DNA from: a virus
DNA: 39,458 nt
Direction: 5' to 3' (one strand)
IMG/VR virus record: IMGVR_UViG_3300049259_000286
Span: 1-39,458 of that record
Shown: piece after piece, positions 2,974 through 6,660 of the stretch
Numbering within the stretch: the stretch's first letter is position 1
Layout: each line of letters opens with the position of its first letter
Made by a program: the position numbers and the translations under genes
Notes under the pieces: model-generated
The model's input: the letters and a program-made list of their open reading frames with translations, nothing else
Database searches by the model: none
What the model was told of the DNA's origin: nothing

Positions 2974-3264
2974 ATGGAGAAAAACGAGGTGAGCCTGCAT
3001 GAGGTCCGCGTCTACCAGGTTCTCGCCGAGGGCAAGTGGGTTACCAACCAGGAGATCGCCGACCGGACCGGGGTTGCACCGCGCACGGCACGCCAGCACA
3101 CGCGCAAGCTGGTCCAGCTCGGTATCGCCGACCAGGCTGAGGTCTTCCCGGCCCATCGCTACCGGCTCAGCGATCATGCAGAGCAGCGCAACCGCGGCTA
3201 CGCCGACCGGATCAAGCGAGCCGTCGAAGTCTTCGGGGACGCGAAACTGGAGGTGACAGCATGA
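2974..3264 (+). CDS. Winged helix-turn-helix regulator
   Basis: A 96-residue protein with a clear helix-turn-helix: VYQVLAEGKWVTNQEIADRT, then GVAPRTARQHTRKLVQLGI, followed by a wing-like hairpin (FPAHRYRLSD). This matches small MarR/ArsR-like DNA-binding folds. It is the first gene of a two-gene plus-strand unit that interrupts the leftward run and overlaps the next gene by ATGA. Its likely role is a phage transcription regulator, and the divergent promoter in front of it may be autoregulated. The target is unknown. Confidence 0.75.
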   Translation: MEKNEVSLHEVRVYQVLAEGKWVTNQEIADRTGVAPRTARQHTRKLVQLGIADQAEVFPAHRYRLSDHAEQRNRGYADRIKRAVEVFGDAKLEVTA

Positions 3265-3884
3265 CCCAGCTAACAACCCGCAACGCGCAGGTGATGACCG
3301 CCACAGTGGAAATTCAGACGCTGACAGTCAGCAACAAGCAAGTTACGCTGGCCTTGTTCCGCCAGCTGCCAGACAAGCCGCTCGTCAAGGGCGACGGCGA
3401 GCTGAACGGCCAGCCATGGGGATGGGTCAATTACCACCCGGATAGGCATGGCTGCGAAGTCGGCGGTCATTTGCACGTGGTGTGGCAGGACGGGGAGCAA
3501 CTATGCCGAGCCAGAGTTGACCGGCCGGATCGGCCTGATGCCCTGTTCTACCCGGACGGAGCTGAGGATCTGGTGCAGGCCCTGTATTGCCTGAATGGGC
3601 ACCAGTATCCACCCACCTTGAGCCGGGTACACGTCGAGGATCGCGTCCGGTTTACGGTCGATGGCATGCCCTGCGCGACGTTCAACGCCCCGAAAACCCA
3701 CCTGACCAGTCTGCAGACGGTATTCGGAACGGCTACGGATGAACCGTGCTGGACAGAGGTCGGTCGGGATAAGGTGCTCGCACTAATCTGTGAAGCGGTC
3801 GAAGCTGAGCGCACGGAACGTGAACGATACTTGGCTACCTGGCGGACGCTCACCGGACTGCCGCAGCTGTTCATAGCCGTTTAA
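3261..3884 (+). CDS. Unknown 207-residue protein paired with the HTH regulator
   Basis: Translationally coupled to the winged-helix gene. I do not recognise the family. The protein begins MTQLTTRNAQVM and has a beta-rich central part (WGWVNYHPDRHGCEVGGHLH, then VHVEDRVRFTVDG) and a helical C-terminus rich in Glu/Arg (EAVEAERTERERYLATW). Several His and Cys residues are present but no metal motif is clear. Codon use is less GC-biased than the structural genes, as often seen in regulatory or recently acquired phage genes. Pairing suggests a partner or effector of the regulator. Confidence 0.6.
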   Translation: MTQLTTRNAQVMTATVEIQTLTVSNKQVTLALFRQLPDKPLVKGDGELNGQPWGWVNYHPDRHGCEVGGHLHVVWQDGEQLCRARVDRPDRPDALFYPDGAEDLVQALYCLNGHQYPPTLSRVHVEDRVRFTVDGMPCATFNAPKTHLTSLQTVFGTATDEPCWTEVGRDKVLALICEAVEAERTERERYLATWRTLTGLPQLFIAV

Positions 3885-3901
3885 GGGGCACCCGCGCACA
3901 G

Positions 3902-4024
3902 CCCGGCTCCAGCGCGGCCTCCCTCGGCACCTCCCTCAAGGACGGCGGCGAGGGCTGCAAGCCGGCCGGCAACTCCTGGCTGTTCGCGGTCGGCGGCATC
4001 CAGCGCACCGGCAACGCGATCTAG
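3902..4024 (+). pseudogene. 5'-truncated second copy of the 48-residue protein at 6266
   Basis: Forty codons in one frame read GSSAASLGTSLKDGGEG, then NSWLFAVGGIQRTGNAI and stop. This matches the C-terminal four-fifths of the small plus-strand protein at 6266-6412 (GSSAASI..., DGGEG, SSWLFRVSGIQRMGNAL). Many differences are synonymous third-base changes, so both were under protein selection. This copy has no start codon: similarity begins about 18 bases after the stop of the preceding gene, so its first nine or so codons have been replaced. Its stop overlaps the stop of the minus-strand gene that converges on it. Confidence 0.55.
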
Positions 4025-4252
4025 CCCCGGGCCGCCTGCCGCAGTTCCACGAAATGCCTGGCCCACGCCACCGGGTCACGGCCGCTCCTGGCCGCCGCCA
4101 CCGCCATGTCCGCGGCCTGCTGCGCGGGCACGTGATCCGCCGTCATCAGGTCGTACGCCTCCTCCACGCCGCGCAGCACCGCGCCGATCACGCGCTCGGC
4201 CTGCCGCCGGGACTTCGCCTCGGCCCGGCTGCCTGATCACCTGGTAGCCCAT
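4021..4252 (-). pseudogene. Small gene with an apparent +1 frameshift
   Basis: An ATG with a strong GGAGG Shine-Dalgarno follows the stop of the upstream gene, reading MGYQVIRQP. It then runs into an Arg/Gly-rich frame typical of out-of-frame DNA. The neighbouring frame reads AEAKSRRQAERVIGAV, then EEAYDLMTADHVPAQQAADM and DPVAWARHFVELRQAARG to a stop, which looks fully coding. Removing one G from the GGG near 4224-4226 joins the two into one protein of about 76 residues. It may be a real disruption, an assembly error, or recoding; otherwise the protein could start at an internal GTG (about 56 residues). Function unknown. Confidence 0.5.
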
Positions 4253-4257
4253 GCCCG

Positions 4258-4584
4258 CTACCTCCGGCCGATGGCCAGCTTGGACGGACGCCCCACGGTG
4301 GCCAGCCCGGACTCGCTCATCTGATCGCGCAGGCTGGCGAGCAGGTCGGCCCAGTCTGAAACGCCCTTCCTGTCCGCGGTCACGGTCAGCGTGGCAGTAG
4401 TCGTCCGGATGGTGACGATGCCCATCTCGCCGCTGGGCGTCGGAATCTTCCCGGTGATCAGGATGGCCGGGACGCCCGTGGCCAGCAGCGGGTTGCCGGG
4501 GTCGAACAGCGGCGGCATCCCGTCCGCGTCGATCATCCCCCCCTGGATCACCTGGCCTTGCGGGGCCTGCTGCGGAGTGGTCAT
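4258..4584 (-). CDS. Unknown 108-residue protein
   Basis: Starts at an ATG eight bases after a clear AGGAG. The N-terminus is Pro/Gln/Gly-rich (MTTPQQAPQGQVIQGG). The middle is beta-rich (AILITGK, MGIVTIRTTTATLTVTAD) and the end is a short helical segment (DWADLLASLRDQM). There is no membrane segment or recognisable motif. It lies divergent from the ribbon-helix-helix gene, so the repressor may act on it. It could be a small virion or antirepressor-like protein; function not assigned. Confidence 0.65.
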   Translation of the reverse strand: MTTPQQAPQGQVIQGGMIDADGMPPLFDPGNPLLATGVPAILITGKIPTPSGEMGIVTIRTTTATLTVTADRKGVSDWADLLASLRDQMSESGLATVGRPSKLAIGRR

Positions 4585-4626: not shown

Positions 4627-4932
4627 ATGAGTACTAAGACCGGCAGCAGCAGCGGCACGCTGGAGCGCGTCACCGTCAATTTCATCGAGCGCACGTCCCG
4701 GGCCTTGCGGCTGGCGATGCGGCTGACAGGCATGTCCAGGACGGACACCATCAACCGCTACGTCCAGCTGGGCGCCTACATCGAATGGCAGCTCAGCCGC
4801 GGCACGAAGTTCTTCCAGCAGGAACCAGGCGAGGACCGCCCGGCCCGCATCCTGTTCAGCCCGGGACCGCCCGAGCCCGACGAGATCGAGCGGATGCTCG
4901 GCACCAGCCCGGCAGCCCCCCGGGCAGGCTGA
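4627..4932 (+). CDS. Ribbon-helix-helix (CopG-like) DNA-binding protein
   Basis: A 101-residue protein. After a short Ser-rich start it has the ribbon strand RVTVNFIERTSRALRLAMR followed by LTGMSRTDTINRYVQLGAYI, the strand-helix-helix pattern of CopG/Arc-type regulators. The C-terminal part (FQQEPGEDRPARILFSPGPP) is an acidic, Pro-rich tail. Such proteins dimerise through the strand and bind short DNA repeats. The start was chosen at the ATG six bases after TATAAT, because no upstream start has a ribosome site. It may be a phage repressor or an orphan antitoxin; no toxin gene is adjacent. Confidence 0.7.
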   Translation: MSTKTGSSSGTLERVTVNFIERTSRALRLAMRLTGMSRTDTINRYVQLGAYIEWQLSRGTKFFQQEPGEDRPARILFSPGPPEPDEIERMLGTSPAAPRAG

Positions 4933-4936
4933 GCGC

Positions 4937-5569
4937 CTACCGCCACAGGCTGGGCCAGACATCGGCCGTCTCCTCGTCTACCCGGACGTGCGGCACGCCG
5001 GCGTTGATCAGGGCCAGCACGAAATCCCAGTCCTCGAACTGGCCCGCGTGATCCCAGCCCGGCAGACCGCCCAGCGCGTCCCGGCGGTGCATGATCATCG
5101 GGGTGCCGACGTTGCCGCACGCGACCGGGCCATGGCCGATGACCGCATCGCCGGACGGGCCGTGGGAGATCATCCGGGACACCGCGAAGCCCGCCTCCGG
5201 ACAGGCGGTCAGCGCGTCGGCGAGCAGCGAGCAGTGCAGCGGGCGCAGGCTGTCGTCATCGTCGCAGTAGGTGACGTACTCCCCGGTGGCGATCTCCAGC
5301 CCGTACGCCCGGCAGTAGTGGCCGTAGTGCTGCTCCGGGTCGTGGGAGGGCAGCTCGCGGTACCACAGGTCTTTCCAGCCGTCCAGCCACGGCTGGCTCA
5401 GCCGCCCGGCCAGTTCCGGGTCCGGGCCGTCGCTGATGACCAGGTGCTCGACCGCCGGATAGCCCTGCGCCTGGACTGAGGGAATAGCTCTCCCAAGCAG
5501 CATCTCGTGTCTTTGCCACGTAGGCGTAATTACTGTTACACGTGGTAGCTTGTTTTGCTCAGACCCCAT
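4937..5569 (-). CDS. Family 2 (GT-A) glycosyltransferase with a recoded 5' end
   Basis: The 210-residue protein opens with LPRVTVITPTWQRHEMLLGR, the nucleotide-binding strand of GT2 enzymes, and has the metal-binding Asp cluster in YVTYCDDDDSLRP. It is shorter than most GT2 proteins but looks complete for a phage minimal GT-A fold. The first 25 or so codons are AT-rich, then composition returns abruptly to the GC-rich norm. A second GC-rich copy of the same N-terminus lies upstream at 6120-6188, and the two are separated by an HNH endonuclease gene. The coding sequence overlaps the endonuclease by 34 bases. A TATGAT at 5584-5589 could supply its own promoter. Acceptor unknown. Confidence 0.85.
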   Translation of the reverse strand: MGSEQNKLPRVTVITPTWQRHEMLLGRAIPSVQAQGYPAVEHLVISDGPDPELAGRLSQPWLDGWKDLWYRELPSHDPEQHYGHYCRAYGLEIATGEYVTYCDDDDSLRPLHCSLLADALTACPEAGFAVSRMISHGPSGDAVIGHGPVACGNVGTPMIMHRRDALGGLPGWDHAGQFEDWDFVLALINAGVPHVRVDEETADVWPSLWR

Positions 5570-6045
5570 GTGCCCGCCCGTTTATCATAGCGAATATGGT
5601 GGGACTGACAGAGGGGCATGAAATCATCCACGCTGAGATACCGGCCTGATATACAAGCCCACTGCACTGGGCCTTTACACGTATCGTTGCCATGAACGCA
5701 AACCTGCCCGGCGGCCGGGCCACGTTCCCTGCACACGCGTGAATGTAGCCCTCTGTAGCCAACTTCGTTCCCGGCCCAGTAAAAATTGAGCGAGCCAGGC
5801 AACGGAGCTGGCGGCTCGAAGACGACCAGTGGATCGCCATGCCGTTGCCAGCGCCGGTAATGCTTCTCGCACCAGCTCCGCGCAAGATGCGGCCCTCCAC
5901 AGCCGTCGACCGAGCACTGAGGCACGGCCAGCAACCGGATTCCGCCAAGCGGATCGCCGTGCCGCTGCCAGCGCCGGTAATGGTTCCGGCACCAGCTGCG
6001 GGAGTAATGCGGCTCCTTGCAGATCGAGCACGTACGCTTAGGCAT
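5536..6045 (-). CDS. HNH homing endonuclease with two zinc-finger-like modules
   Basis: The 169-residue protein starts with two near-identical modules of about 40 residues (CSICKEPHYSRSWCRNHYRR and CSVDGCGGPHLARSWCEKHY, each ending WQRHGDPL), which look like zinc-binding DNA-recognition units. The C-terminal domain has an HNH-like signature: CKGPVQWACISG, then DDFMPLCQSHHIRYDK. It is lower in GC than its neighbours, indicating transfer. It sits between a truncated copy of the GT2 5' end and a complete, recoded one, as expected for a free-standing homing endonuclease that targets this glycosyltransferase gene. Activity is inferred from the motifs. Confidence 0.8.
   Translation of the reverse strand: MPKRTCSICKEPHYSRSWCRNHYRRWQRHGDPLGGIRLLAVPQCSVDGCGGPHLARSWCEKHYRRWQRHGDPLVVFEPPAPLPGSLNFYWAGNEVGYRGLHSRVCRERGPAAGQVCVHGNDTCKGPVQWACISGRYLSVDDFMPLCQSHHIRYDKRAGTWGLSKTSYHV
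5831..5997. repeat. Tandem-duplicated zinc-module sequence inside the HNH gene
   Basis: A 47-base segment starting GGATCGCC and ending ACCAGCT occurs at 5831-5877 and again at 5951-5997, exactly 120 bases (40 codons) apart, with few mismatches. It encodes the SRSWC..HYRRWQRHGDPL part of each DNA-binding module, so the two modules arose by internal duplication. Confidence 0.75.
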
Positions 6046-6067
6046 ACTGGCCTGCTAACCCAGGTCG

Positions 6068-6105
6068 TGCCCCGGACCTGTTCCACCAGGTACCGGGGCA
6101 TTTTT
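6068..6105 (+). terminator. Intrinsic-terminator-like hairpin with U-tract (plus strand)
   Basis: TGCCCCGGACCTG (6068-6080) pairs with the arm at 6087-6100 except for one bulged A, with a 6-base loop, and is followed directly by TTTTT. It reads as a rho-independent terminator on the plus strand, opposite to the endonuclease gene whose start lies just outside it. It would block rightward transcripts or shape the 5' leader of the endonuclease mRNA. It lies within the inserted segment. Confidence 0.55.
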
Positions 6106-6119
6106 ACCAAGTCTACCGG

Positions 6120-6188
6120 CCGTTCCAGCAGGAACCCGTGCCGTTGCCAGGTCGGGGTCACTACTGTCACGCGGGGCAGCGCGCTCAC
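6120..6188 (-). pseudogene. Truncated 5' end of the interrupted GT2 glycosyltransferase gene
   Basis: A GTG with an AGGAGGAG site upstream starts SALPRVTVVTPTWQRHGF and continues LLER. This is homologous to the first residues of the downstream GT2 protein but uses the GC-rich codons normal for this genome. After LLER the similarity stops, where the endonuclease-bearing segment begins. I read it as the original start of the glycosyltransferase gene, cut off by the insertion. It may still be translated into a short dead-end peptide. Confidence 0.65.
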
Positions 6189-6265
6189 GGGATCACCACG
6201 GCTCCTCCTGCCGGATTACGGGAACAGCTCCCCCGGCTGGCAGCCAGGCTGCTACGCTGGGTGCC

Positions 6266-6412
6266 ATGAACTTCGCCAACGGTAACTCGCTCGGGTCCAG
6301 CGCCGCGTCGATCAGCATCAGCATCCGCGACGGCGGCGAGGGAGGCAGCGTGCCCGGCAGCTCCTGGCTGTTCCGGGTCAGCGGCATCCAGCGGATGGGC
6401 AACGCGCTCTAG
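6266..6412 (+). CDS. 48-residue Ser/Gly-rich protein, probably leaderless
   Basis: The protein begins MNFANGNSLGSSAAS and ends WLFRVSGIQRMGNAL. I know no family. A second, truncated copy at 3902-4024 differs largely at synonymous sites, which is good evidence that this frame is translated. TACGCT ends seven bases before the ATG and no Shine-Dalgarno is present, so a leaderless mRNA is likely. It lies opposite to the leftward run, ending two bases from the stop of a minus-strand gene. Small size and Ser/Gly content do not suggest a membrane protein. Confidence 0.5.
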   Translation: MNFANGNSLGSSAASISISIRDGGEGGSVPGSSWLFRVSGIQRMGNAL

Positions 6413-6414
6413 GC

Positions 6415-6660
6415 TCACGTGATCACCTGCCGTCCGGCCACGGATACCTGCCGGTTCTCATCCAGGGAGAACGTCAGCTCCACGCGCCTGCCGTTCAGCT
6501 CAGCCGGGGCGTGATCGTCTTGCACCTGGTACCACTGCGCGCCAGGGTTCCAGGGGCGGTCCGGCTGCGGGGGTCCGGTGATCCGCATGCCGTCCGGCCA
6601 CGTCAGCCCGGCATCCATCAGCTCATCGGAGATCAGCACCCAGTACACCGCGCTCACCAT
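6415..6660 (-). CDS. Unknown 81-residue protein
   Basis: Reads MVSAVYWVLISDELMDAGLT at the N-terminus and ends in a beta-rich segment (RRVELTFSLDENRQVSVAGR). It overlaps the upstream gene by seven bases, so it is part of the leftward chain of tiny genes within the sugar cassette. There is no clear membrane span and no recognised motif. Codon use fits the neighbouring genes, which supports it as real. Function not assigned. Confidence 0.65.
   Translation of the reverse strand: MVSAVYWVLISDELMDAGLTWPDGMRITGPPQPDRPWNPGAQWYQVQDDHAPAELNGRRVELTFSLDENRQVSVAGRQVIT

Follow-up and report, generated by a model that had tools for sequence, protein, structure and literature searches.

The 39,458-nt contig IMGVR_UViG_3300049259_000286, from a soil virus of bacteria and analysed here over its whole length (the window, whose coordinates are used throughout, with all features on the minus strand unless stated), holds a GT2 glycosyltransferase gene with two starts, one on either side of an HNH-type endonuclease gene. 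In the direction of transcription, the locus consists of a GT2 stub, a 74-nt leader with a hairpin, the HNH gene and a complete GT2 gene. The stub (6120..6188), apparently the displaced native 5' end, opens with a GTG at 6188 and encodes MSALPRVTVVTPTWQRHGFLLER over 23 codons, the last of which is CGG; GT2 similarity is lost past this codon at 6120, where native genes continue with TGC ATC CC. The HNH gene (5536..6045) encodes a protein of 169 amino acids, and its 3' end overlaps the inner GT2 start by 34 nt. The inner GT2 gene (4937-5569) is complete, with 210 amino acids, a Pfam Glycos_transf_2 match (E-value 2.5e-9) and the N-terminus MGSEQNKLPRVTVITPTWQRHEM. Its first 31 codons (5477..5569) are AT-rich and appear to be a foreign replacement 5' end, judging from the GC content at third codon positions (GC3) and from a match to a second carrier, L024, while the remainder (4937..5476) is a native body according to Pfam and to its nearest relatives. 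The beginning of the replacement 5' end, ATGGGGTCTGAGCAAA, is overprinted on the 3' end of the HNH gene, and the same 16 nt occur unchanged in L024. The inserted element would thus comprise the leader, the HNH gene and the replacement 5' end over about 643 bp (5477..6119), its left edge being placed where GT2 similarity is lost and its right edge where GC3 and identity to relatives switch, at about codon 30. That two starts of one GT2 gene flank the HNH gene, as first noticed from the sequence, is confirmed by the reading frames, by Pfam and by codon alignment.

Among the 14 codons shared by the inner and outer starts, nine differ, eight of them synonymously and one by a Val to Ile replacement, so that the count of about nine synonymous changes in the first-pass annotation was slightly high. 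GC3 computed by zone amounts to 0.44 in the inner 5' zone versus 0.94 in the GT2 body (Fisher p ~5e-9), in agreement with the described passage from an AT-rich start to a GC-rich body, and no 100-nt stretch of the 39-kb window has a lower GC content than 5527-5626, which contains sequence of this 5' zone. The HNH gene itself likewise has a low GC3 (0.63-0.68). Simulations do not support selective recoding of the inner start: its synonymous divergence from native codons is no greater than the codon usage of the element would yield (p 0.1-0.9 at GC3 0.65/0.5). Since the codon differences fit a foreign, lower-GC origin, we do not claim selection for recoding, and any protection of the carrier may be a by-product of this origin.

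Relatives of the GT2 gene were gathered twice from viral contigs, first as a set of 21 loci and then as an enlarged set of about 39 distinct native 5' ends, carriers excluded. All of the latter feature a single uninterrupted GT2 gene, without an HNH gene, and the same gene neighbourhood wherever it was compared; in the loci compared in detail, this includes an upstream glycosyltransferase gene, the YWV gene (in several loci), a downstream gene of 108 amino acids and a GT1 gene. In the window, the YWV gene (YWVLISDELMD...) lies at 6415..6660 and is also found 5' of GT2 in L004, L006, L008, L010, L012, L014 and L024, while the 108-amino-acid gene, recognized by synteny with the related loci, lies at 4258..4584. 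None of the ~39 distinct natives has a second GT2 start, so that the outcome named in the first-pass annotation as refuting its reading is not observed. The whole records of the 21 loci of the first set contain no copy of the window HNH gene, even though two of them have other HNH genes weakly similar to it, and a scan of genome contigs for HNH relatives returned two distant HNH loci only. Such a sporadic presence, with two carrier lineages against ~39 distinct empty GT2 alleles, is as expected of a free-standing homing endonuclease gene.

The second carrier lineage is represented by four nearly identical contigs from four metagenomes (L023-L026), the HNH protein of which is 63% identical to that of the window. 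The order in L024 is the same: the stub, reduced here to GTGAGCATCCCCAAGGT, is followed by a leader with a hairpin, by the HNH gene and by an AT-rich GT2 start opening with ATGGGGTCTGAGCAAA. (In L027, which has the next HNH relative, the locus is truncated by the end of the contig.) In the 5' zone, the codon-aligned identity between window and L024 reaches 0.75-0.76, which makes each the top match of the other, whereas their GT2 bodies rank each other only 19th and 16th of 40. The nearest natives of the window stub are L226/L004 (0.81) and L224/L002 (0.79), and the same lineages are the closest to the window GT2 body; similarly, the L024 body is closest to L236, whose start matches the L024 stub. 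Identity to relatives switches at about codon 30 of GT2, and the inner 5' zones of the two carriers share a GC3 of 0.44, compared to 0.59-1.0 in natives and 0.89-0.94 in the bodies of the carriers. In both carriers, stub and body thus resemble the same natives, but the inner 5' end resembles that of the other carrier, which shows that this end moves together with the nuclease. At the level of the aligned loci, this establishes the HNH gene and approximately the first 31 GT2 codons as one unit, present in the same gene of two divergent phage lineages and absent from their relatives.

From a functional perspective, the HNH protein has two zinc-binding CxxC...WCxxHY repeats in its N-terminal half and a C-terminal HNH-like domain (5566..5796), in which the family-invariant H, R-G, C, W, P, C, H and D are kept. 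It matches PHROG “HNH endonuclease” families down to an E-value of 8e-12, mostly over the zinc-repeat half, while no Pfam HNH match was obtained for it and a PDB sequence search with an HNH profile returned chance matches only. Synonymous divergence between the HNH genes of the two carriers is large, and their ratio of nonsynonymous to synonymous rates (dN/dS) is 0.14, which indicates that the gene is under purifying selection. The full-length AlphaFold model has a predicted local distance difference test score (pLDDT) of 39, and that of the C-terminal domain alone a pLDDT of 76; the latter adopts a beta-beta-alpha fold, with the HNH nucleases GVE2 (5h0m) and Gme (4h9d) as top, though not significant, structural neighbours. 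The invariant residues, the PHROG match and the purifying selection all support an HNH/beta-beta-alpha-metal domain, and we predict that the window nuclease is a free-standing HNH homing endonuclease.

In natives, a Cys codon (TGY) follows LLxR in 55 loci (35 distinct contexts), and the window stub terminates exactly ahead of it. At this position, the inner copy of the window has GCT (Ala, 5486..5488) in place of the near-invariant TGC, presumably marking the destroyed cleavage site, while the L024-type carriers, L005 and L236 have Thr. The Cys is thus lost only in the replacement copies of the carriers and in the HNH-less L005 and L236. As Cys has no synonym outside TGY, destruction of the site would require an amino-acid change, and the cut site likely lies near ...CTGGAACGG/TGCATCCC..., at the end of the window stub. 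L005 and L236 are close to the lineages of the two carriers, and the arginine of TWQ-R is encoded in L005, as it is in L011, by AGA, a codon used for none of the 159 Arg residues of the GT2 bodies. L005 and L236 look like footprints, either of excision between direct repeats or of partial conversion.

The leader contains a stable RNA hairpin 5' of the HNH start (6068..6100, z -3.2). A hairpin with a partly different stem sequence is found at the same place in L024 (z -2.1), and GC-rich hairpins also precede the HNH genes of L034, L133 (z -3.7) and MinS1. Moreover, the frame that begins at the native GT2 start remains open across the leader and the HNH gene (5559..6188), for 209 codons in the window and 194 in L024; its stop codon, a TGA situated 8 nt inside the inner ATG, is the same in both in spite of the unequal stub lengths. 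This frame is a candidate leader open reading frame (ORF) for translational coupling, and it is reasonable to infer that termination and reinitiation from the native start would express the hybrid gene. We also note a promoter-like CTGTCA-16-TATGAT at 5584-5611 (minus strand), in the 3' end of the HNH gene and just 5' of the inner GT2 start, the L024 equivalent of which reads TATGAC.

Altogether, we regard it as highly probable that the locus carries a free-standing HNH homing element endowed with a replacement 5' end for the GT2 gene that it invades. The nuclease would cut element-free GT2 alleles near the Cys site, and repair off the carrier would copy the leader, the HNH gene and the replacement 5' end, with the stub and the neighbouring gene as upstream homology and the GT2 body as downstream homology. 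The old start would remain as a stub, while GT2 would be re-formed as a hybrid that apparently still works. The carrier would escape cutting because the stub is the left half of the site only and most codons of the replacement copy are different, the Cys codon among them; the hybrid would be expressed partly by coupling, since ribosomes leaving the native start would cross the insert in another frame and stop just inside the new ATG. The initial suggestion of a homing element that splits GT2 and restores its 5' end is thus supported by the empty sites and by an independent carrier.

An overlapping variant of this reading, to which we give somewhat less than an even chance, is that the element came from a lower-GC phage and dragged its own GT2 start along, by co-conversion or illegitimate joining, without any protective recoding. 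It accounts for a synonymous divergence that equals the codon-usage expectation and for the low GC3 of the HNH gene as well. What it leaves aside is that the near-invariant Cys, for which there is no synonymous codon outside TGY, has given way to another residue at the stub end in both carriers, and that both carriers are still AT-rich amid a GC-rich background despite the large synonymous divergence of their HNH genes. The two readings part only on whether protection was selected.

The other explanations fare less well. That a decaying free-standing HNH gene stands beside a GT2 gene whose 5' end was duplicated by repair and then diverged would explain the ACA, GTA and CAA codons common to the inner and outer copies, but the low dN/dS argues against decay and the inner 5' end is nearer to the L024 carrier and to L005 than to its own stub, which makes this scenario very improbable. 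Equally at odds with the comparisons, and in our view very unlikely, is a pair of tandem GT2 paralogues, with the HNH gene in the first, a deletion sparing only its start and the inner GT2 independent: tandem glycosyltransferase genes are indeed common in the neighbourhood, but two GT2 starts at this slot occur in 0 of the ~39 distinct natives, stub and body have common nearest relatives with only the first ~30 inner codons being foreign, and the pattern is repeated in L024. Finally, although HNH genes often reside in introns and an intein-like insert exists in the neighbouring GT1 of L005 and L007, a group I intron or intein spliced from GT2 is scarcely conceivable, as an Rfam search of 5300-6400 at E<=1 finds no intron or other RNA family, the duplicated coding segment is unneeded for splicing and the stub frame, closed by the TGA at 5559, is not that of GT2.

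Several points weigh against the homing element with a replacement end. The three AT-ending codons ACA, GTA and CAA common to stub and inner copy indicate that the stub is not a wholly pristine native end and hint at conversion between the two copies. As the stubs end at different points in the two carriers (23 versus ~6 codons), the position of the cut site is deduced mainly from the window. The structural match of the nuclease is weak (Foldseek E-value 2.0, best VIA-align Z 4.5) and without significance. The open frame, a pattern spotted post hoc, persists in 11% (window) and 5% (L024) of cases when the HNH part is shuffled synonymously, and this frame is open in the free-standing relative Gudmit too. 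Finally, the GT2 carrier lineages number two, both known from metagenomic contigs alone.

Beyond GT2, a comparison of the flanks of HNH relatives revealed gene-end duplications (at least 35 bits) around 4 of 195 HNH-type ORFs versus 8 of 1902 other ORFs, the strongest control duplications resembling tandem paralogues or repeat proteins. With so modest an excess over the controls, the argument stands on the anatomy of the loci. L042 offers a second 5'-end case, with a primase stub, an HNH gene and a primase with a different 5' end, the stub being in frame with the HNH gene, whose stop overlaps the restored ATG (ATGA); in Paracoccus phage Shpa, helicase and primase are adjacent. Two mirror cases concern 3' ends, with a partial empty-site comparison for each: in L034, the remnant past the HNH gene resembles native C-termini of the MuF protein, and in L133 the major capsid protein gene has an AT-rich 3' end before the HNH gene and, past it, a remnant that is GC-rich and has lost part of its sequence by deletion. 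No duplicated gene ends were found in twelve further HNH-bearing isolate phage regions, nor in Abrogate and Gudmit; in L219 (Microcystis phage MinS1, 39830-41519), the HNH gene directly follows MuF as in L034, with a GC-rich hairpin between them, and a 3' remnant was not detected. On balance, we lean slightly towards a recurrent class of free-standing HNH homing genes in tailed phages that invade coding sequences and supply a replacement gene end, either 5' (GT2 twice, primase) or 3' (MuF, major capsid protein). In the 5' type, the displaced native start would be retained and open a leader ORF, the stop of which overlaps the restored start codon, and expression would pass to the hybrid by translational coupling.

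Other inserts occur around the locus. The neighbouring GT1 genes of L005 (7196-9400) and L007 (6304-8604) share the position of a large insert (CIDSSMR...SHN/S), which is in frame and seems to be an intein that includes a homing nuclease region; together with the GT2 element, this designates the glycosylation module as a repeated target of homing elements. A different, second HNH gene with several zinc repeats lies on an L024-type contig (L029:8835-9512). Within the window, two similar small ORFs (6266-6412 and ~3883-4025, plus strand) encode GSSAAS..S..DGGEG....SWLF.V.GIQR.GNA, the latter without its 5' end and adjoining a lower-GC plus-strand pair (2974-3884) of a 96-amino-acid winged-helix-like gene and a 207-amino-acid gene of unknown function. 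This pair, on the strand opposite to the glycosyltransferase operon, is in none of the related loci and looks like a recent insertion. A small ParG-like gene (4627-4932, plus strand; Pfam E-value 0.014), also opposite to the operon, is conserved in L002, L010 and L014.

Free-standing homing endonuclease genes of the SegF type are located between genes and cut a neighbouring gene. The window element is unlike them in that it contains part of the target coding sequence. Intronless homing by SegF and other free-standing genes (cited in PMC12724721) is akin to our proposal in that the nuclease secures its own inheritance through break repair. As with mobE in Aeh1 nrdA and mobA in T4 gene 60 (PMC2988022), a free-standing phage homing endonuclease lies within a gene, but there the host protein is split into two polypeptides, whereas here it is re-formed as one. 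The ShiLan insertion in an actinophage DNA methylase (PMC11855218) resembles ours in being a zinc-finger phage HNH gene placed out of frame in a coding gene, with no intron or intein and with the host-gene start frame open through the HNH gene; it differs by in-frame read-through with no restored end, in contrast to the duplicate and the replacement end seen here. The closest known kind, in line with the analogy to fungal mitochondrial atp6 elements in the first-pass annotation, is that of the fungal mitochondrial gene hybrids associated with mobile endonuclease ORFs, known for atp6 in Allomyces, for atp6, atp9, cox2 and nad3 in Glomus and for atp9 in Rhizopus (PMC3630166). In both systems, an endonuclease ORF in a coding gene brings a foreign copy of one gene end, and the displaced native end persists as a second copy, which groups with native relatives, the differences being largely synonymous; the fungal hybrid genes are transcribed (PMC3630166). 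Unlike these mitochondrial elements, which are of the LAGLIDADG or GIY-YIG type and, in the cases consulted, affect the C-terminal end, ours belongs to a bacteriophage, is of the HNH type with zinc repeats and concerns the 5' end, where a new start codon overprints the nuclease gene; the 3' end is involved in the mirror cases L034 and L133. As for the statement that no phage example had been described, the open-licence papers searched yielded no phage case in which a gene end is replaced, although they describe related HNH insertions in phages that lack such a restoration (ShiLan, mobE, mobA).

The locus illustrates how a nuclease gene that lacks an intron or intein could become lodged in a coding gene and leave it functional, in phages as well as in the mitochondria of fungi. 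Such an element leaves readable marks (a stub, a hybrid 5' end, a cleavage-site codon and footprint alleles), so that its specificity, immunity and loss become testable by sequence. If recurrent, it would represent a source of chimeric ends that has been overlooked in the structural, replication and glycosylation genes of phages, and gene-start annotation and phylogenies could be misled.
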